A stretch of 64,000 bases of DNA, from the NCBI RefSeq assembly GCF_000187935.1, contig NZ_AEUT02000001.1, positions 620,001 through 684,000 on the forward strand, read 5' to 3'. Made by a program: the position numbers and the translations under genes. The DNA comes from Streptococcus parauberis NCFD 2020 (GTDB lineage Bacteria; Bacillota; Bacilli; Lactobacillales; Streptococcaceae). Shown here one piece after another: positions 11,229 through 57,250 of the stretch. Position 1 is the stretch's first letter; each line of letters starts with the position of its first letter. The notes beneath the pieces were generated by a model, which worked only from the letters and a program-made list of their open reading frames with translations, ran no database searches and was not told the origin of the DNA.

Positions 11229-13523
11229 TTATTTTTTTGTAATTGGAGCTACACTTGCTAGTAATTTTTTAAGGCCAACGTCAGGAAATTTTATTTTTAA
11301 TTCCATTGTTTTTCCACTGCCAGACACTTCTAGGACAGTTCCATCCCCCCACTTTTTGTGCTGGGCAATATCTCCAATTTGCCAATCTATACTATCTGAT
11401 TGCGCTAAGTTATTGCCAAATGGTAAGTGACCATCCGCTAATGAAGTGACTCTTTCTTTATTTTGAGCTTGGCTCTTACGAGCTTGAATGGCTTGTGAGA
11501 GACTCATACCTTGTCCGAATTCAGATGTTTTTTGTTGACTGTAGCGAACACCAAAGGAAGAATTTGCTGGACGAGCTAGTCCTTGATAAGATAACAACTG
11601 GTCAGAAATTTCTCTTAAGAAGCGTGTTGGTCGATTATAGCTGCTTTTACCAAACAAGGTTCTTGTATTTGCATTTGTTAAAAAGAGTACTTGTTCAGCA
11701 CGTGTAATACCAACATAAGCAAGACGACGTTCTTCTTCAAGTTCAGCTGGATCTTCAGAAGCTCTAGATAGTGGGAAGACACCTTCTTCCATACCTATCA
11801 GAAAGACCACTGGAAACTCTAATCCCTTAGCAGCATGGAGGGTCATCAGTGTCACTTCAGCTACATCTGCATCGCCATTATCTGTGTCAGCAATCAATGC
11901 TAAGTCATTTAAGAATCGACCAAGTCGGTCAAGCCCGCTTTCATCTTCTTCAACATTGTTTTGATTGTCATCGAAGTTTTTAGTTACCGAAATGAATTCT
12001 TCAAGATTTTCTATTCGGGCTTGACTCTCAAGTGTATTCTGAATCCGCAGAGCTTCTAGATAACCCGATTGATCGATTAACTGCTCTGTTAGTTCTGTAA
12101 TTGTTAAGTTATCCAATTTTAATCGAAAATCTAACAATAGATTTGCCAGGTCCATAATTGACTGCGCAGCTTTTCCCTTTAGGGGAGACATTAACAGATT
12201 TGATGAGGCATCCATTAATGACATCTCATTTTGAAAAGCAAATAAACGGAGTTTTTCCATTGTTCCTGGTCCCACGCCACGTTTAGGTTCATTGACAATG
12301 CGCTCAAAAGAGATGTTATCAGAAGGGTTGGCTATAATATTAAGATAAGATATAACATCGCGAATTTCTTTTCGGCTATAGAACTTAGTCCCACCAACCA
12401 TAGTATAAGGTATATTTGATTTCAAAAATGCTTCTTCAATAGTACGTGATTGAGCATTAGTACGATATAAAACGGCGAAATCTTTGAAATTTTTCTCATT
12501 ACCTTGGCACATATTTGAAATAGTTGATGCTATAAAGACTGCTTCATCATGTTCATCGTTTGCTCGATAATAGACAATCTGTTCACCATCAGCATTCTGT
12601 GTCCAGAGTTTTTTATCACGTCTATTTTGATTATTTTTTATGACATCATTTGCAGCTTGAAGAATTGTTTTAGTTGAACGATAGTTTTCTTCTAATAATA
12701 CCACCTTAGCAGATGGGTAATCTTTTTCAAAATCCAAGATATTTTGCATATCCGCTCCGCGCCAGCCATAGATTGACTGGTCGGCATCACCGACAACACA
12801 AATATTTTTAAAGCGAGAGGCCAATAATTTTACTAACTGATATTGAGCATGGTTAGTATCTTGATACTCATCAACATGTATGTATTGGTAACGTTGTTGA
12901 TAGTAAGCTAAGACATCTTTATTGGTATCAAAAAGACGAAGGGTCATCATAATTAAATCATCGAAGTCCATTGCTTCACTACGTCGCAATTCCTCTTGAT
13001 ATGCCTTATAACAACGAGCTACAATTTGGCTATACATGTCAGCTGCTTGAGCTTCAAATATTTTTTCATCCAATAAGTCATTTTTGGCATTGGAAATAGT
13101 CCCTAAGATTGAGCGTTCACTCCATTTCTTAGGATCCAAATTAAGTGATTTAAGAATTCGCTTCATCAATGTTCTTTGTTCGCCTGGATCAACTATCGTG
13201 AAATTACGATTATAGCCAATATGGTCCGCTTCACGTCTTAAGATTCTGACACACATTGAGTGAAAGGTCGCAATTAAAGTGTCTATAGTTGCAGGATTCA
13301 AAGCAAGTGCTCTGTCTCGCATTTCACGCGCAGCTTTATTGGTAAAGGTAATTGCTAAAATGTTCCAAGGATTGACAAATTTTTCATCAATCAAGTAAGC
13401 GATTCTGTGAGTTAAAACTCTTGTTTTACCAGACCCTGCTCCAGCCATAATTAACAACGGTCCTTCCGTTGTTTGGACTGCTTCTGCTTGTTTTTCATTC
13501 ATTCCATTTAATAAAGGATTCAT
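11229..13523 (-). CDS. pcrA: ATP-dependent DNA helicase PcrA
   Basis: This 764-residue superfamily-1 helicase has motif I AGAGSGKTRVL (about 27-37), the Q motif LNEKQAEAVQT-like opening, motif II VDEYQDTN, motif III GDADQSIYGWRGAD, motif IV ENYRS, motif V TLMTLHAAKGLEFPVVF and motif VI RRLAYVGITRA. The C-terminal tail ends in a Tudor-like fold (residues 700-760, IGDIAQHKKWGDGTVLEV) known from PcrA to contact RNA polymerase. It acts in repair and in removing proteins from DNA. It is monocistronic. Confidence 0.97.
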   Translation of the reverse strand: MNPLLNGMNEKQAEAVQTTEGPLLIMAGAGSGKTRVLTHRIAYLIDEKFVNPWNILAITFTNKAAREMRDRALALNPATIDTLIATFHSMCVRILRREADHIGYNRNFTIVDPGEQRTLMKRILKSLNLDPKKWSERSILGTISNAKNDLLDEKIFEAQAADMYSQIVARCYKAYQEELRRSEAMDFDDLIMMTLRLFDTNKDVLAYYQQRYQYIHVDEYQDTNHAQYQLVKLLASRFKNICVVGDADQSIYGWRGADMQNILDFEKDYPSAKVVLLEENYRSTKTILQAANDVIKNNQNRRDKKLWTQNADGEQIVYYRANDEHDEAVFIASTISNMCQGNEKNFKDFAVLYRTNAQSRTIEEAFLKSNIPYTMVGGTKFYSRKEIRDVISYLNIIANPSDNISFERIVNEPKRGVGPGTMEKLRLFAFQNEMSLMDASSNLLMSPLKGKAAQSIMDLANLLLDFRLKLDNLTITELTEQLIDQSGYLEALRIQNTLESQARIENLEEFISVTKNFDDNQNNVEEDESGLDRLGRFLNDLALIADTDNGDADVAEVTLMTLHAAKGLEFPVVFLIGMEEGVFPLSRASEDPAELEEERRLAYVGITRAEQVLFLTNANTRTLFGKSSYNRPTRFLREISDQLLSYQGLARPANSSFGVRYSQQKTSEFGQGMSLSQAIQARKSQAQNKERVTSLADGHLPFGNNLAQSDSIDWQIGDIAQHKKWGDGTVLEVSGSGKTMELKIKFPDVGLKKLLASVAPITKK

Positions 13524-13756: not shown

Positions 13757-13916
13757 CATACAGGAGAAGAAAGTTTTTTCGCCGAAGGAGTTATACTCTC
13801 AGGTGTTCAATTTATTTGAACGGGACTGCATGATGGACGGACTTCTGGAGAGACCTATCTAGGCGCCGAAGGGGCAAGGCAATTTCGCTCAATCTCTCAG
13901 GCAAAAGGACAGAAGA
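13757..13916 (+). ncRNA. Tandem glycine riboswitch (two aptamers)
   Basis: Two aptamers follow each other. The first runs from CAGGAGAAG to GGACTGCATGATGGA, with GCCGAAGGAG and CTCTCAGGTG. The second runs from CGGACTTCTGGAGAGACC to AGGCAAAAGGACAG, with GCGCCGAAGGGGCAAG. Both GCCGAAG and CTCTCAGG(T/C) signatures of the gcvT element are present. It lies in the leader of an AGCS symporter, with an intrinsic terminator 60 bases later, so control is probably transcriptional. For transporters of this type in S. pyogenes glycine has been reported to switch expression off. Confidence 0.95.
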
Positions 13917-13976
13917 TAATAATAATTACTAGTTAAGGTTTTTCCTTTATTGGTTTATTTTATCTACCTTACATTT

Positions 13977-17000: not shown

Positions 17001-17835
17001 AATTTTTAACTTGATCAGTTGCTACGTCTTCACCAAACCATTTGTTTGAGATTTCTTGGAATTTGCCATCTTTATATAGTTTTTTAAGTGATTTATTTAG
17101 ATTTTTAACAAGTGTTTTGTCTTCTTTACGAACACCAACAGCAAAGTTCTCACCCTCGTATTCACTTTTTACAATATTATAGTTAGCTAATTCGCCCTCT
17201 TGTTTCAAATAGTAGTTAGCATAAACTTTATCAATCAATAAGCCATCAATACGACCACTTTTAAGGTCGATAAAGGCTTGTGTGAAGGTTTCATATTGAG
17301 TTGCATCTTTATCCTTAACAATGTCTTTAAGGACCTTAGGATTTGATGTAAAGGCGTCATAACCCGATGAACCGGATTGAGCTCCTAAAACTTTTCCTTT
17401 CATCCCTGAAAATGAGGTGATATTAGCCGATTTTTTGGTTACTAAAACTTGTTCATTCTTCATATACGGATTCGAAAAGGCCACTTTAGCTTGACGTTCT
17501 TTTGTAATGGAATAACCATTCCAGATCATATCAATTTTACCGTTTTTAAGCTCAGTTTCTTTCAAATCCCAGTTAATTGGTTGGAATTTAACTTTAATAC
17601 CGTATTGATCAAAAACGGCTTTAGCCAATTCCACATCGAAACCAGTATTTTTACCAGATTCATCTTTATATCCCATTGGAACAAAAGTATTATCAAAACC
17701 TAGGGTAATTGTTTTTGTTTTTTTATAGTTAGCCCAACCATCACTTTTAGTTGAACTTTCTTTACTGCCGCATGCTACAAGAATAATAGCCATAAAAGCT
17801 GTCATTGCTGTCAAAATTAGTTTTTTTAATGTCAT
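16999..17835 (-). CDS. Amino-acid ABC transporter substrate-binding lipoprotein
   Basis: This 278-residue family-3 solute-binding protein has a lipoprotein signal (KKLILTAMTAF, lipobox ILVAC with C22) and the SBP_bac_3 core FDNTFVPMGYKDESGKNTGFDVELAKA. The later part holds IDMIWNGYSITKERQAKVAFS and DGLLIDKVYANYYLK. It would bind a polar amino acid outside the membrane. It is the third gene of a permease-ATPase-binding protein operon and is followed by a terminator. Confidence 0.92.
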   Translation of the reverse strand: MTLKKLILTAMTAFMAIILVACGSKESSTKSDGWANYKKTKTITLGFDNTFVPMGYKDESGKNTGFDVELAKAVFDQYGIKVKFQPINWDLKETELKNGKIDMIWNGYSITKERQAKVAFSNPYMKNEQVLVTKKSANITSFSGMKGKVLGAQSGSSGYDAFTSNPKVLKDIVKDKDATQYETFTQAFIDLKSGRIDGLLIDKVYANYYLKQEGELANYNIVKSEYEGENFAVGVRKEDKTLVKNLNKSLKKLYKDGKFQEISNKWFGEDVATDQVKN

Positions 17836-36491: not shown

Positions 36492-36836
36492 GGGGTTGTT
36501 ACGGATTCGACAGGCATTATGAGACATGTTTTGCGACCCATCGGCAGATGTAAAATGCCAGTTAAATATAACTGCAAAAAATACAAACACTTACGCTTTA
36601 GCTGCCTAAAAACCAGTTAGCGTGACTTCAACAAGATTGCTTGTGTCCTGTTAGAAGTCTCAAAATAGCAAGCTACGCTAATGTGTCCGTCTAGCCACCT
36701 TAGAAGAGATTAATAGACTCGCATCTTAATGGCTTGAGTTATGTGTCCTTAGTATGTTAAATTAATACATAACCTATGGTTGTAGACAAATATGTTAGCA
36801 GATGTTTGGACGTGGGTTCGACTCCCACCAGCTCCA
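36492..36836 (+). ncRNA. ssrA: tmRNA
   Basis: This 345-base transfer-messenger RNA rescues stalled ribosomes. The 5' GGGGTTG pairs with CAGCTCC at the 3' end, the T-arm is GTGGG-TTCGACT-CCCAC, and the discriminator is A36836; CCA is not encoded. The tag frame at 36574-36609 reads AKNTNTYALAA and then TAA, one residue from the AKNTNSYALAA reported for S. pyogenes. The 3' end is the apparent prophage attachment site. Confidence 0.98.
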
Positions 36837-44063: not shown

Positions 44064-44782
44064 TATTTATACCCCCAATTCGTTTCAACTTTTAAACTTG
44101 CTACTCCTGCACCTAAAACAACTCCATATATATCTTTATCTGGATCAACAGTCACAAAATCACCCCTCCATTTAACTTGATTACCAGTGCTATCTCTAAC
44201 CGATGGCATTTGTTGATTATTAATCATAACAGTTGTCTTAACTGCATCGATTAATTCGACGTAATTTCCAGCTATCGAAAAATAGCAGTCTGTTGTTGAT
44301 TCAGGAACAATGGTAATTGTTGGAAATGCTAAGGCAGTCCCTTGCGTATTATATGAGCCATTTGCAGTAAATGTTTGAGTGTCAATTGTCGTCATATATT
44401 TTGTCGGATGACAATTAAAAGTTACGTCAGCAACCCACGCTCCAAAATCATCCACTCTAAACTCAAAATCATCAACTGTATAGCACCAAAAACGGATACC
44501 TTGAAGTCGTTCATTCATTAACCAAAAATTCTCTTTTGTCAGTAATTCTGTAAATTCTAACACTTGCATATAATCACAGTCTATCAAGCTAATATGATAG
44601 CCACGTTTTACCATAGAGCGATGTTTATTGGTTGATTTGATAGCGCCTGAAATGCCGTTATGCTCAATTAGCCTTGTCTTTGAACTCGAGACTTTTAAAA
44701 ACGGATGGTCTTCCACGATAACCTTAAAAGGAAAAGACGATGTCCGAACACCGTCAATGATTAATTCATTATCAATTATCAT
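44063..44782 (-). CDS. Distal tail protein (Dit)
   Basis: This 239-residue protein lies between tape measure and tail tip, the fixed position of Dit in siphoviruses. The N-terminal half has DGVRTSSFPFKVIVEDHPFL and a beta-rich ring domain; the C-terminal half is a galectin-like domain. Dit forms the hexameric hub joining tube and tip. It overlaps both neighbours by a few bases. Confidence 0.85.
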   Translation of the reverse strand: MIIDNELIIDGVRTSSFPFKVIVEDHPFLKVSSSKTRLIEHNGISGAIKSTNKHRSMVKRGYHISLIDCDYMQVLEFTELLTKENFWLMNERLQGIRFWCYTVDDFEFRVDDFGAWVADVTFNCHPTKYMTTIDTQTFTANGSYNTQGTALAFPTITIVPESTTDCYFSIAGNYVELIDAVKTTVMINNQQMPSVRDSTGNQVKWRGDFVTVDPDKDIYGVVLGAGVASLKVETNWGYK

Positions 44783-53307: not shown

Positions 53308-55020
53308 CTACTCATAGTAATAAGCTAAATCTTCCCTATGTTGCTCATAGACAATAAATGCATCTAGCTGACTAGCGAATACGTCAATTTTGTCTTTGGC
53401 TTTTGCTTTATTTGGAAAAATATTTCCATTAGCATCCACTTTAACCATTACATTTGAGTGATTCCATGTCGATACCTCATCATCAAAAATGATTTTACCC
53501 ATCTTCGCTTTTTCTTTGTAAACTTTTAAGTGAGAAGATAAATTTTTGACTGTCTGCGGTACGTCGTAACAGATATCACCATAATAATCATTAAACAGTC
53601 TCACTAACTCTTTAGCATTCCATCTGTCATATCCAACCGCTATCGGTAATATGTGTTGTTCGTTCATAAACTCACGCAAGTTATCAAAGATATAACGCTG
53701 GTCGTTGTAGTCTAATTCGTGGATATGCAGTAAACCTTTAGTTTCCCATTCAAGATATTTCAGTTGCTGGTCTCGTGGTAGACTATCGATTGTTTGTCGT
53801 GGCATGTATTTTTTATTGATATATTGTCTTTCTTCTCCATTCACAATCATAAATGAAATTGAGCATATGTCATTTACATCTGACAAGTCGGCACCTAAGA
53901 CACATCTTGCAGTCTTATCCTCATCACCTTTAAATAAACTAGCATCAAACTTATCTATCCAACCTTTACATTCGTCGTTTGTGAAATAAGCAAGGTAATT
54001 ATTAATCGGCAAATTGAAAGTCTTAGCCATCAATTCAGCTTGCTTTGCTGGATCGTTACGACTGCTTTCGATATCTTGTGCGATAGTTTCTTTTTCGGTA
54101 GTAATCCCAAGCAAAGGCATTGCTTTCATCCACAAATCAGGATTGTTGATTTCTGACACATCGTCTAGCTTATATATCCAAGGCATGACACTATCGTTTG
54201 TGACTTTACCTGTTAAGACATCCATCCAATATGAATAATACCTATCAAATAACTTATCTCGTTTAGTACCATTTGTTGATATGTACCAAGTCATCCAGTT
54301 TTTACGCTTACGACTTGAACCATCATTAACAACTTTTATAAAGTCATCGTCGTATGTGTGTACTTCATCGAAGATATTGTAATGCGCATTAGTACCATCA
54401 AGACTTTCATAGTCTGATGTCTTAATCGACATCAAACTATTTGTCGTTTCGTATAAGATACCTTGTTTAGTAGAGCGTATAACATCAGCTTCACGCATGT
54501 AATAGAGTAAACTATCCTCGTTAGACAACATTGCCCTAGAAGCATTAAATAGGAATCCTGCCTGCTCTCGTGAGTAGGCAAGTAGTTGTATGTCAGCTCC
54601 ATATTCCCCATCAATTATCTGGCCAACTTCACCGATGGCACTTCCTAATGTTGTTTTACCAGTACCGCGAGGAACAATAATAGGCACCTCATGAATAAGG
54701 CGCCTTTCTTCTGTAATTTGGTATTCTTCTAATGTATCATGATTTGTTTTAGTGACTAAAGCCTCGTGATAGAAACCCCACGCACTTTCTAACCAAACTT
54801 TTTGCGGTAAGGCAAGTTTCAACTTCCCAGATTGGCCTTTTGTGTTGCTGCATTCTTCTTCGATGAATTTAATCCGCTTGTCTGCTTCATCCTGCTTAAA
54901 AATGTATTGCTTTTTAAAGCGTTTGATACGTTCTATTTCTAGTTTTGTCGGAATTGATACTGGTATTAGCCCAGATTCAACCATTTCAACATATTTATCA
55001 AAGTATTTCATTTTAACCAT
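53308..55020 (-). CDS. terL: Terminase large subunit
   Basis: This 570-residue packaging motor of the Terminase_1 family has an N-terminal ATPase with VPRGTGKTTLGSAIG (P-loop at about 117-124) and NIFDEVHTYDDD (Walker B). The C-terminal RNase H-like nuclease has LGADLSDVNDI and later VGYDRWNAKE and KDKIDVFAS. It overlaps the small subunit by eight bases. Confidence 0.95.
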   Translation of the reverse strand: MVKMKYFDKYVEMVESGLIPVSIPTKLEIERIKRFKKQYIFKQDEADKRIKFIEEECSNTKGQSGKLKLALPQKVWLESAWGFYHEALVTKTNHDTLEEYQITEERRLIHEVPIIVPRGTGKTTLGSAIGEVGQIIDGEYGADIQLLAYSREQAGFLFNASRAMLSNEDSLLYYMREADVIRSTKQGILYETTNSLMSIKTSDYESLDGTNAHYNIFDEVHTYDDDFIKVVNDGSSRKRKNWMTWYISTNGTKRDKLFDRYYSYWMDVLTGKVTNDSVMPWIYKLDDVSEINNPDLWMKAMPLLGITTEKETIAQDIESSRNDPAKQAELMAKTFNLPINNYLAYFTNDECKGWIDKFDASLFKGDEDKTARCVLGADLSDVNDICSISFMIVNGEERQYINKKYMPRQTIDSLPRDQQLKYLEWETKGLLHIHELDYNDQRYIFDNLREFMNEQHILPIAVGYDRWNAKELVRLFNDYYGDICYDVPQTVKNLSSHLKVYKEKAKMGKIIFDDEVSTWNHSNVMVKVDANGNIFPNKAKAKDKIDVFASQLDAFIVYEQHREDLAYYYE

Positions 55021-55483
55021 AATTTGCTAACTTCTCCTTTATCATATTGGATAAGTTATCAGCTTGTGGTTTGACTTTCTCAATGTCAGACATGATTTTC
55101 ATGTTTAGCTTTTGAAATTTTTCCATTGAGTCTAGAATAAATTTGTCAGGTATCTCTCCACTTGCAATCATCAAGTCAATTTCTTTTTGCAAGCTATCAA
55201 TTAACTTTTTATTATTATTAAATTGAGTTTTTAACTGCAACACTTCAAACGGATCAGATTTTTCTAAAAGGTATAAATCTTTCACAACTGCTTCATCTAT
55301 TATTTTGTCTAAATCAATTTTTTTAGTATACTTTACTGTTTGTCTAGCTTCCTTTTTTAGTTGTTCAAAGTGAGTTACATCTACATCATCTTTTGTTTCA
55401 GAGACAATGCCAAGCTTTTTCCTATATCTATATAGCGTTGTGCGTGATATATTTAGCAATTCAGCAGCTTCTTCAAGTTTCAA
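55013..55483 (-). CDS. terS: Terminase small subunit
   Basis: This 156-residue DNA-recognition subunit has a helix-turn-helix near the N-terminus (LEEAAELLNISRTTLYRYRKKLG) and a long helical oligomerisation region. The start is taken as TTG at 55483 because AGGAGG lies six bases before it; a start further upstream would run through that site. It should bind cos near the phage genome end. Confidence 0.82.
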   Translation of the reverse strand: MKLEEAAELLNISRTTLYRYRKKLGIVSETKDDVDVTHFEQLKKEARQTVKYTKKIDLDKIIDEAVVKDLYLLEKSDPFEVLQLKTQFNNNKKLIDSLQKEIDLMIASGEIPDKFILDSMEKFQKLNMKIMSDIEKVKPQADNLSNMIKEKLANYG

Positions 55484-55551
55484 TTTATACCTCCTTTCTG
55501 TTTCAAGTGTCAAAAAAAATGGGAGAGAGTTTTACAAGAGGAGTACAACCG

Positions 55552-55896
55552 TTATTCTGGCGCGGTTTTCGAGCGTTTCATAGGGGGGTTATGAAACAAA
55601 TCAATGGAACGATTATCTAAATTAAAATTTTTTTTATCTCCAAATGTTTTCGTTTGATGACATTTAAAACAAAGCAATTGTAAGTTATCTTCATTAAGTG
55701 TGATACTCTCGTCCATATAGTTCTGTGGTGTGATTTCTATGATGTGGTCGACAATAGACTTGCCTTTGATTAACTTACCACACATGTCGCATCGCATCCG
55801 TCTATCGTTTCTGATTTTATTTCGTAATGGATGCCAAACTTTTTTATTATTGTAAAACTTTATTTGCCATTGCCTAAACCAGTCTGGATGTTTCAT
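55552..55896 (-). CDS. Phage HNH endonuclease
   Basis: This 114-residue nuclease has two zinc CxxC pairs (C36/C39 and C76/C79) enclosing the HNH core (VDHIIEITP with D50-H51, and N71 in NEDNLQLLC). In cos phages this gene sits beside terS and its product works with terminase on cos. The ATG at 55896 with GGAGG is preferred over an upstream GTG. Confidence 0.92.
   Translation of the reverse strand: MKHPDWFRQWQIKFYNNKKVWHPLRNKIRNDRRMRCDMCGKLIKGKSIVDHIIEITPQNYMDESITLNEDNLQLLCFKCHQTKTFGDKKNFNLDNRSIDLFHNPPMKRSKTAPE
55575..55597. repeat. Inverted repeat around a G-run, possible cos element
   Basis: GTTTCATA-GGGGGGT-TATGAAAC is a perfect 8-bp inverted repeat with a seven-base, G-rich centre. It lies within the last codons of the HNH gene, just before terS. 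It could be a terminase or HNH recognition site; cleavage positions cannot be inferred. Confidence 0.45.
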
Positions 55897-55906
55897 AATT
55901 CCTCCA

Positions 55907-55932
55907 TAATAAAAAGCCACTCAATGAGTGAC
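55907..55932 (-). terminator. Hairpin with T-run in front of the packaging genes
   Basis: On the minus strand GTCACTC-ATT-GAGTGGC is followed by TTTTTATT, 11 bases before the HNH start. It looks like an intrinsic terminator inside the phage operon and could be a point of antitermination or attenuation. Confidence 0.55.
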
Positions 55933-55992: not shown

Positions 55993-56040
55993 TTGAGATA
56001 GCAGGATTCGAACCTGCGATACTTCCGATAGTTATCTCAA
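55993..56040 (-). ncRNA. tRNA-like minihelix 1 (T-arm on acceptor-like stem)
   Basis: On the minus strand TTGAGATA pairs perfectly with TATCTCAA (8 bp), enclosing a 15-base linker ACTATCGGAAGTATC and a canonical T-arm GCAGG-TTCGAAT-CCTGC. The T-loop has the TTCRA(N)Y signature. There is no room for D and anticodon arms, and no alternative 5' acceptor strand is found upstream. It resembles a tRNA top half. It could be an RNase P/Z substrate, a tRNA pseudogene or an armless tRNA-like RNA. Confidence 0.55.
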
Positions 56041-56128
56041 CCAAATAGTAAGTTCGATTTATTATATGGTAATCGTCTAATCATATGTAGACCAGTTTGT
56101 TAATTGTTATCTCTTCTTACTATTCCGA

Positions 56129-56151
56129 TAATACAATAATACAGTAATACA
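56129..56151 (-). repeat. Triple TGTATTA repeat between late activator and packaging genes
   Basis: TGTATTA (minus strand) occurs three times with one base between copies, an 8-base period. An inverted repeat GCGAC...GTCGC (56155-56178) lies next to it, just beyond the activator stop codon. The spacing suggests a site for a protein or a promoter element of the late operon. Confidence 0.5.
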
Positions 56152-56181
56152 AGTGCGACTAATAGCGGTATTTGTCGCAAG

Positions 56182-56610
56182 CTATATAATCCCATAATAA
56201 TCTGCAAAGATTTCCAATATCCTAGCTCGTTTACGATATATTGTAGCTCTGTCGTAACATGTTTTTTGTGCTATTTCTTCCCATGAGTTAACACTACCTC
56301 TTGACCATCTTAACCAGAATATTTCTGTTAAATCGTCGTCTAATGTGTCTAGTGTGCTCTCTATCGCTTCTTTCTGTGCGTATAAGCTATTTAACCGTTT
56401 ATCACTATCCCACCGTTCTATGATGTTCTCTGTTGGTTTAGAAATGCGGTTAGCTTTTCCACCTCCTATGTTTGTGTCTTCGTTTGGAATATCTGTTACT
56501 TCCAGTTTTCGTACTGCAATCTTATGTTCAATACTTGGATATTCGAATAGTAATTCATCCAATGCTTTTAATTGCGACATACTAAGTTTCCCCACTATTT
56601 GCCCCCCCAT
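56182..56610 (-). CDS. RinA/ArpU-type phage late transcription activator
   Basis: This 142-residue protein resembles ArpU/RinA/DUF722 regulators: a conserved IGGGKANRISKPTENI segment (about 48-63), a helical middle, and a sigma-70 region-4-like HTH at the C-terminus (WEEIAQKTCYDRATIYRKRARI). In related phages such proteins switch on the packaging and structural operon. The first ATG lacks a clear Shine-Dalgarno; a GTG at 56595 or ATG at 56580 is possible. Confidence 0.75.
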   Translation of the reverse strand: MGGQIVGKLSMSQLKALDELLFEYPSIEHKIAVRKLEVTDIPNEDTNIGGGKANRISKPTENIIERWDSDKRLNSLYAQKEAIESTLDTLDDDLTEIFWLRWSRGSVNSWEEIAQKTCYDRATIYRKRARILEIFADYYGII

Positions 56611-56613
56611 TTA

Positions 56614-56668
56614 TGGTATAATATAGTTACGAACTAATACCAAGGCGCTCTTTCGTGGGGCGCTTTTT
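56614..56668 (+). promoter_or_regulatory. Plus-strand extended -10 promoter and nearby terminator hairpin
   Basis: TGGTATAAT (56614-56622) is an extended -10 element facing right. It is followed at 56642-56668 by a hairpin (AAGGCGCTC with GGGCGCTT) and TTTTTG. It could give a very short antisense or decoy transcript opposite the start of the late activator, or the hairpin may serve only in the sense RNA. Confidence 0.35.
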
Positions 56669-56838
56669 GTTGTCTTATCGGAGTAGCTATACCTCTTTTC
56701 TTTTTTTATTTTCGGACAGGCACACGATCCGTATTGAAATTCTCACGATGCCTTATTGAATAGGATATAACCGATAATATCCGTTAGATTTAGTATTTAT
56801 GACGTAAGGAGACCTCCATTTTTTTAATTTCGGTTAAT

Positions 56839-56879
56839 ACCAACCGAGCGAGTCGAACGCTCGTGATACCGTTGTTGGT
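56839..56879 (-). ncRNA. tRNA-like minihelix 2
   Basis: On the minus strand ACCAAC pairs with GTTGGT (6 bp), enclosing the linker AACGGTATCAC and a T-arm GAGCG-TTCGACT-CGCTC with a canonical T-loop. It begins at the stop codon of the upstream gene. It shares CGG and GTATC in the linker with minihelix 1, so the two look related. No space for D or anticodon arms exists. Confidence 0.5.
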
Positions 56880-57250
56880 TATTTTAGTTGCATAATCATA
56901 TCAATATGCGGTGATAGAATAGGAATTAATGCTCTGGTTATGCACCAAACGACAATAATAACTGCTGTCAATATACTTGTATTTTTGAGCACCGCCTTTT
57001 CTCTTGTAACATCATTATTAAAATCAATGGCCACCTCTAAACTTGTAAACGCCCATAAAAGAATAAATAACAAAGGTATTACTAATGCACCTAACCATGA
57101 TATAGATTGTAAAAACCTATACCACTGCCATTCATGTAACAACCGCTCATAAATCTGTGGTGCATTCATATTCAGACTGCTTACAATTTTCTCTAGTTCA
57201 CTAGCTGATATATCTAAAATCTTTGCTAGTGGTTTAATTAGTTCGTTCAT
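56879..57250 (-). CDS. Phage membrane protein of unknown function
   Basis: This 123-residue protein has a polar N-terminus (1-48) and two membrane helices (about 53-70 and 94-112). I recognise no family. It overlaps the upstream gene by four bases, so it belongs to the early or middle operon, and it is the last gene before a structured untranslated region of about 270 bases (56611-56878). Confidence 0.7.
   Translation of the reverse strand: MNELIKPLAKILDISASELEKIVSSLNMNAPQIYERLLHEWQWYRFLQSISWLGALVIPLLFILLWAFTSLEVAIDFNNDVTREKAVLKNTSILTAVIIVVWCITRALIPILSPHIDMIMQLK

Follow-up and report, generated by a model that had tools for sequence, protein, structure and literature searches.

The closest described systems include the t-elements, tRNA-like sequences without a translational role that lie at the ends of mRNAs and rRNAs, are cut there by RNase P and RNase Z, and are described for plant mitochondria and also upstream of the 5S rRNA in Haloferax (PMC11658184, PMC8003010, PMC4326828). 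As characterised in one of these sources, t-elements are homologous to tRNA genes and adopt a typical tRNA-like fold (PMC11658184). A second point of comparison is given by the model hairpins and external guide sequences of RNase P; according to the source, hairpins that consist of acceptor stem, T-stem and T-loop are cleaved by E. coli RNase P RNA (PMC11143913). For some substrates, for example the T4 dimer, the enzyme is described as preferring or needing a 3′ (R)CCA (PMC11143913), and the same is reported for a pseudoknot substrate (PMC12710915). M3 RNA and C4 antisense RNA are given as phage transcripts cut by RNase P (PMC11143913), and the 3′ tRNA-like structures of plant viruses as cases of viral tRNA mimicry that are RNase P substrates (PMC11143913, PMC4810235). 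The plant-virus structures differ from those considered here in that they belong to RNA genomes, are aminoacylated, lie in the 3′ UTR and have a pseudoknotted acceptor. M3 RNA and C4 antisense RNA are single RNAs with folds of their own, in contrast to the repeated and intergenic minihelices described below. The tRNA-like domain of tmRNA, finally, combines an acceptor stem and a T-arm with a D-loop that lacks a D-stem.

Here, we describe two elements of Streptococcus parauberis NCFD 2020 in a window of 64,000 nt, that is, the whole stretch of DNA that was analysed (GCF_000187935.1, NZ_AEUT02000001.1:620,001-684,000, forward strand). An initial annotation of this DNA had described them as two minus-strand minihelices, each with a T-arm joined to an acceptor stem, and direct reading of the sequence agrees. 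Element 1 (56040-55993, 5′ to 3′) consists of TTGAGATA, a 15-nt linker, GCAGG TTCGAAT CCTGC and TATCTCAA, giving an acceptor-like stem of 8 bp that sits flush on a 5-bp T-stem with the loop TTCGAAT. Element 2 (56879-56839, 5′ to 3′) consists of ACCAAC, the 10-nt linker AACGGTATCA, CGAGCG TTCGACT CGCTCG and GTTGGT; its 6-bp acceptor and its 7-nt loop TTCGACT stand as first described, whereas the T-stem has 6 bp instead of 5 and the linker 10 nt instead of 11. Linkers of 10 and 15 nt are indeed too short for D and anticodon arms to fit. The proposed prophage location is confirmed by 1501 bp at 100 % identity between the element region and Javan411 and Javan400, Streptococcus phages from S. parauberis, and the gene that the elements flank, taken before for a late activator, belongs to the RinA family TIGR01636 (Table 1). 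The TAA stop of the 123-aa ORF (56879-56881) shares the first base of element 2. The ORF at 53308-55020 is the terminase large subunit of Javan411 and is preceded by the probable small-subunit gene, whose match to PHROG 4102 (terminase small subunit) is weak.

Table 1. Features discussed in the text, in window coordinates unless another sequence is named.
Feature	Position	Strand	Details
Element 1, tRNA-like minihelix	55993..56040	-	acceptor 56033-56040/55993-56000; linker 56018-56032; T-arm 56001-56017
Element 2, tRNA-like minihelix	56839..56879	-	acceptor 56874-56879/56839-56844; D-loop-like linker 56864-56873; T-arm 56845-56863
Competing hairpin, 3′ acceptor strand of element 2 paired with sequence just downstream	56830..56843	-	predicted stability slightly above that of the acceptor stem
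RinA-family phage transcriptional activator, between the elements	56182..56610	-	TIGR01636, E 2.5e-14; PHROG 36
ORF upstream of element 2, 123 aa	56879..57250	-	PHROG 26340 (function unknown)
HNH endonuclease gene, downstream of element 1	55552..55920	-	PF01844
Probable terminase small subunit	55013..55513	-	PHROG 3567 (function unknown); weak PHROG 4102 match
Similar copies of 56611-56686	G000:C1:2162398 and 1436904		own genome

ARAGORN called no tRNA at either element, and no Rfam family matched either of them at gathering scores; at loose thresholds, element 1 reached 23.4 bits for tRNA (RF00005; cut-off 29, E 0.06) and element 2 gave nothing. Of the features that define RF00005, a TTCRANY-type T-loop arm flush on an acceptor stem is present, and the cloverleaf with an anticodon arm is absent from both elements. 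The idea that software had overlooked full tRNAs is disfavoured, as D and anticodon arms are absent. With the two covariance models introduced below, element 2 is matched by R1 and also by R2, by the latter at E 9.8e-11 with the window itself being part of the R2 training set, and R1 matches the T-arm alone of element 1, at a non-significant E of 0.44; the support for element 1 is comparative and comes from its relatives. RNA folding z-scores are −2.7 for element 1 and −2.1 to −2.2 for element 2. A minihelix scanner returned 3 minihelices from the window, whereas 40 dinucleotide shuffles gave 0.875 on average (maximum 4); when GG was required in the linker, the count stayed at 3 and the shuffle mean was 0.15 (maximum 1). 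The third minihelix, at 12731-12774, looks like a chance match. Chance as an explanation is disfavoured by these shuffles and by the flank-permutation test given below.

What the minihelices share with t-elements is a tRNA-like signal that lies on the coding strand where coding units end. They are, in contrast, borne by phages, often arrayed and devoid of D-stem and anticodon arm, and their cleavage is something that we infer; since both window elements consist of acceptor and T-arm only and thus lack the defining full tRNA-like secondary structure, they are not classed as t-elements, even though they would work like them. The minimal architecture is that of the RNase P model hairpins and external guide sequences (PMC11143913), to which relatives of element 1 with a 1-nt linker come close in plan. 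These model substrates are synthetic and their numbering includes a C+74-type 3′ end, whereas the minihelices are natural, have no CCA in the window and mostly carry a D-loop-like linker. In contrast to tmRNA, the window elements are about 40 nt long and have neither an mRNA-like domain with a tag reading frame nor an encoded CCA; no Rfam tmRNA match was obtained at the elements, and the window's tmRNA lies away from both, at 36492-36836.

Relatives of element 2 were sought in 14 streptococcal phage regions (L006-L019, taken from 52 matching records). The element lies upstream of the activator in 12 of these; SpSL1 and phiKSM96 are the regions without it. The sequence before it differs between relatives, the annotated genes upstream being 117 to 636 nt long. 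In 9 of these 12 regions, the start of the element 2 match lies no more than 2 nt from the end of an annotated gene. In L006 it is an unannotated ORF that ends there, the upstream gene overlaps the element by 9 nt in L014, and it ends 75 nt before it in L013. When 13 hand-chosen orthologues were aligned (11 distinct rows, with L010, L011 and L013 coming from a scanner that required pairing), 132 of 132 cells paired, and 7 pairs were changed on both sides. CCAAC/GTTGG of the window is replaced by CCCAT/ATGGG in L013, L014 and L029. Covariation amounted to 0.624, as compared to 0.190 in shuffled and at most 0.098 in slid alignments; the number of further pair types was not above that of shuffles (187/500). 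The compensatory changes that a covariance search had been proposed to reveal are thus present for element 2.

Relatives of element 1 were found with the letters of the T-arm and the 3′ strand fixed and with the 5′ partner taken as the best of 42 places, and therefore the 5′ acceptor strand alone is tested in this comparison. Among 12 distinct variants, 7 of 7 acceptor pairs form in 10 and 6 pairs in the other 2, and the two innermost pairs change jointly (T-A, A-T to C-G, G-C). Linker lengths are 1, 12, 15, 35 or 36 nt, the longer relatives (35-36 nt) being those of L002/L007 and L032. As the linker varies and the acceptor pairing is kept, the acceptor/T helix rather than the linker is the conserved unit; the CGG and GTATC common to both linkers find no support as a functional motif, given linkers of 1-36 nt in the relatives of element 1. 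The initial annotation had also suggested a duplicated functional RNA. Pairing that is kept through compensatory changes in relatives of both elements supports a functional RNA, whereas a duplication finds no support: each element has its own orthologues with their own acceptor sequence, and the two hence look like members of one class rather than products of a recent duplication. As a separate observation, rows of odd-sized tRNA-like elements (about 37-110 nt by the scanner, some of them called as tRNAs) occupy the interval between activator and terminase in L008:3777-4342, L009:3399-3871, L010:3431-3862 and L015:3284-3790.

The putative class may be described as an acceptor-like stem that would stack on a T-arm, usually with 11-13 bp together and with no D-stem or anticodon arm, and a short linker usually resembling the D-loop of a tRNA (AAYGGT). 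By means of covariance models, and of patterns that ignore the acceptor stem, the same design was found in phages of Streptococcus, other Lactobacillales, Streptomyces and Mycobacterium as well as in many metagenomic contigs. Model R1 was built from 14 hand-chosen sequences, some of whose end letters are inaccurate, which makes pair 1-45 unreliable; R2 was built from R1 matches taken from real sequence, and the pairing, covariation and position counts given in this text are likewise based on real sequence. Members with other stems were returned by R1 in 9 of 118 Streptococcus genomes (own genome included), and matches by R2 in 10 of 118. In Lactobacillales, R1 gave 7 of 246 genomes, of which 4 lie outside Streptococcus, in 4 genera. 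Class- and phylum-wide genome samples returned the own genome only (1/299 each), an incidence that is a lower bound because filters were strict and 21 candidates were scored per genome. A pattern search led to arrays in high-GC metagenomic contigs and from these to Streptomyces phages of the Arquatrovirinae, and a separate scan to the Mycobacterium phage Cuke, which is identical to locus L156 over 4001 bases. The Streptomyces phages Joe and Izzy carry 8 and 10 minihelices and the mycobacteriophage Cuke carries 10, all of them unannotated in the fetched records. Shuffled sequences yielded 0.20 for the 8 of Joe and 0.13 for the 10 of Izzy, all of which have GG; one of Joe's 8 scanner minihelices (+21166, within a gene) looks like chance. 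In Endor2 (44378-44460; L073:4379-4461), a minihelix coincides in part with a deposited 'tRNA-Arg', which also covers the 3′ end of the upstream gene and is probably a false tRNA call.

A test independent of the acceptor stem used the pattern AAYGGT-N8..11-GGTTCGANTCC in viral contigs, which fixes the linker, the T-loop letters and the two loop-proximal T-stem pairs. At least 244 distinct matches were obtained; among the matches listed, 69 (in 56 loci) combine a fully paired T-stem with 5 or more acceptor pairs, as compared to 7.1 expected with permuted 3′ flanks. Over 74 chosen loci, R1 gave 143 matches. In the alignment of R1 matches, whose rows were fitted to the structure and in part selected by means of it, 96.3 % of cells were paired (51.5 % shuffled) with a covariation of 0.991 (0.172 shuffled), and 2 of 5 covariation measures were not above shuffles (309 and 239 of 500). 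Among the 130 distinct members that were parsed, the linker contains GG in 129 and measures 10-11 nt in 118, and acceptor and T-stem add up to a helix of 11-13 bp in 115; these figures are to be read in the light of GG having been built into several search patterns and of members having been parsed with linkers of 7-16 nt only. R2 matched 109 of 200 pattern-found viral loci (drawn by patterns with GG and T-loop letters, and in part used to train R2) 184 times, 96 of these matches being held-out. The 70 distinct held-out members that were parsed present a looser picture than the 130, with GG in 66, a 10-11 nt linker in 35 and an 11-13 bp helix in 47. Another pattern yielded 16 genome-contig loci, of which R2 matched 13 at an E of 0.1 or lower; Lactobacillus, Lachnospiraceae and Bacteroidota are among the names in their titles, as is a contig binned as Bathyarchaeota. 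The latter (L310:778-1255, Bathyarchaeota archaeon) contains four minihelices within 0.5 kb and is likely viral or else a phage contig that was binned wrongly. At cut-off, Rfam matched no minihelix in the five loci that were scanned. The actinophage-form pattern gave 0 matches against genome contigs, locus L095 had no match among named phages, and phiC31 as well as the fetched part of phiadh had no R2 match at E 0.1. Phage phiC31 has unusual early terminators.

With respect to genes, a same-strand ORF (at least 40 codons) ends −12 to +60 nt upstream of 102 of the 130 members, as compared to 25 % of random places and, for the opposite strand, to 32 of 130. A position inside a same-strand ORF is found for 23 of the 130, as compared to 62 % of random places. 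The bias recurs in held-out members (56/70, versus 21 % of random places and 12/70 on the opposite strand), and all 33 loci with two or more R2 matches are strand-uniform. In Joe, Izzy and Cuke, the minihelices are on the coding strand in every case, and 22 of 28 are located 4-16 nt after a stop codon (match edges measured against the deposited annotation). Those of Joe and Izzy lie between co-directional genes, 4-37 nt past the previous stop (one at 132 nt) and with the next start 23-68 nt further on; one in Joe is overlapped by a weak opposite-strand gene call. In Cuke, all 10 begin between −8 and +8 nt relative to a stop; there is overlap with the upstream gene's end for 2 and with the next gene's annotated start for 2. 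In the prophage of the window, the activator starts about 230 nt downstream of element 2, a spacing unlike the tight one of the actinophages. Within the blocks around matches, 8 of 9 (Joe), 10 of 11 (Izzy) and 8 of 11 (Cuke) co-directional gaps of at least 60 nt are filled (26/31 together); over all genes listed, the values are 8 of 26, 10 of 23 and 8 of 22 (26/71), most longer gaps outside the blocks having no minihelix. The annotated Cuke genes gp43 and gp44 (L325:17430-17477, 17662-17761) begin before a minihelix and run through it; their true starts may be further downstream. Comparison of the sequences thus demonstrates the structure, covariation, strand, position and recurrence of the minihelices, and shows an acceptor/T fold under selection, on the coding strand and at gene ends.

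We infer that the RNA is made, folds in this manner and is cut, and that the cutting matters. The reading that we favour, at a probability of roughly 60 %, is that the minihelices are minimal tRNA mimics that would be cut in cis by host RNase P and RNase Z and thereby split the phage mRNA. Acting on the coding strand just past a stop codon, a minihelix would be cut by RNase P on its 5′ side, and its 3′ side would be handled by RNase Z or an exonuclease, which would turn a polycistronic phage transcript into separately stable mRNAs. Cleavage at element 2 would separate the last early gene from the RinA-type activator, and at element 1 the activator from the HNH and terminase (late) genes. With 6+6 and 8+5 bp, the elements offer the continuous acceptor/T helix of about 12 bp with a T-loop that constitutes a minimal RNase P substrate. 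The linker AAYGGT, which corresponds to the tRNA D-loop (A14..G18G19), could dock on the T-loop. A 3′ RCCA, with which bacterial RNase P makes contact in many substrates, is absent: no CCA follows element 1 or element 2, which is a point against RNase P cleavage, the importance of CCA varying by substrate. A broader proposal, which we regard as evenly balanced between true and false, is tRNA punctuation without tRNAs: phages of many bacterial groups would place a mimic after successive genes and so have the essential tRNA-processing enzymes of the host cut their long operons into mRNAs of one gene each, which would then, as is seen in Cuke, start with a protective hairpin.

This hairpin is a regular companion in Cuke, where one of 7-9 bp begins at most 5 nt after each minihelix (10/10, mean z −3.8); in Joe and Izzy it is weaker (mean z −1.4 and −0.9), all of these z-scores being based on mononucleotide shuffles. 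A 5′ hairpin can stabilise bacterial mRNA, and in Cuke the new 5′ end created by cleavage would carry it as a possible stabiliser of the cleaved mRNA. One alternative is that the minihelix is an uncut structural element in cis, which blocks 3′ exonucleases, ribosome run-on or re-initiation, or insulates genes, with no cleavage by RNase P or RNase Z. A stable flush helix right behind the stop codon is what such a function would use, but it leaves unexplained why a T-loop and a linker with a D-loop-like GG are found rather than any hairpin, and a separate hairpin is already present after each Cuke minihelix; we consider this alternative unlikely. Somewhat less likely again is a small RNA acting in trans, in which excised mimics of about 40 nt would serve as decoys that titrate a tRNA-binding host factor (RNase P, EF-Tu and a tRNA-targeting defence nuclease were considered). 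The 8-10 copies per genome in Joe, Izzy and Cuke would provide dosage for such a decoy and the features of the tRNA elbow are kept, yet nothing in it calls for copies in most of the longer block gaps at a near-fixed distance from the stop codon.

Folding predictions bring in a further alternative. With 16 nt of downstream sequence, ViennaRNA, which ignores coaxial stacking and elbow or tertiary contacts, preferred the minihelix in none of the 12 element 2 sequences folded, with acceptor pair probabilities of 0.01-0.19; the preferred fold was the downstream hairpin in 9 and another fold in 3 (L013, L015, L019). In the window, the 3′ acceptor strand finds its alternative partner in the downstream AACCG, and the software favours this fold (−15.4 versus −14.6 kcal/mol). 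A switch between two predicted folds is possible for element 2. A terminator, attenuator or switch, with acceptor stem and downstream hairpin as the two states of a regulator, would draw on the hairpin predicted in these 9 of 12 sequences; against it, the 3 others fold differently, the two-state prediction is one for element 2, and the GC-rich hairpin followed by a U-run that marks a Rho-independent terminator is not found. No U-run directly follows either window element, and among the held-out members TTTT occurs within 12 nt in 4 of 70 (6.9 % background), hence with no enrichment. We regard this explanation as improbable.

Decayed tRNA genes remaining in prophages, as had been suggested at first, would be in keeping with the presence, close by in several streptococcal phages, of full tRNAs and of tRNA-like elements of odd size, and with the longer relatives of element 1. 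They are disfavoured by pairing that is maintained through compensatory changes, by the narrow linker length of most members (10-11 nt in 118 of 130), by arrays confined to one strand, and by ARAGORN, which over 16 loci placed every tRNA call downstream of the activator and none at the site of element 2, and we deem this origin very improbable. A DNA-level site that happens to resemble a tRNA T-arm (for recombination, att, or a homing endonuclease) has the nearby HNH genes in its favour, together with module exchange, which must happen nearby since the upstream sequence varies and element 2 stays, but a DNA site needs neither stems that vary with compensatory changes nor a strand and stop-codon bias, and can practically be dismissed.

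A full-text literature search, with most subscription papers outside its scope, returned no recognisable report of such phage minihelices, and the class is apparently widespread and uncatalogued. If the minihelices are cut as we propose, phages would be recruiting RNase P and RNase Z extensively for the processing of their mRNA, many gaps between phage genes that look empty would be accounted for, and few natural tRNA mimics would be smaller than the minihelices. These might then be of use as compact natural transcript cutters in bacteria and allow the in vivo requirements of RNase P to be tested directly. Should the punctuation proposal hold, it would amount to a general and previously unrecognised layer of phage gene control. 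Cultured phages of Streptomyces and Mycobacterium carry a conserved class of RNA that Rfam scans miss and that merits cataloguing whatever its mechanism.

Three further observations concern the window. Just upstream of the probable terminase small-subunit gene, 93 bp at 55500-55592 are 98-99 % identical in Javan401 and Javan402, satellite phages of S. parauberis, which suggests, on the basis of this sequence match, a packaging site common to helper and satellite. The stretch directly upstream of the RinA-type gene (56611-56686) has two copies elsewhere in the same genome, with 81 % and 77 % similarity (Table 1). Outside the prophage region studied, a glycine riboswitch aptamer is located at 13835-13922 (68.6 bits).
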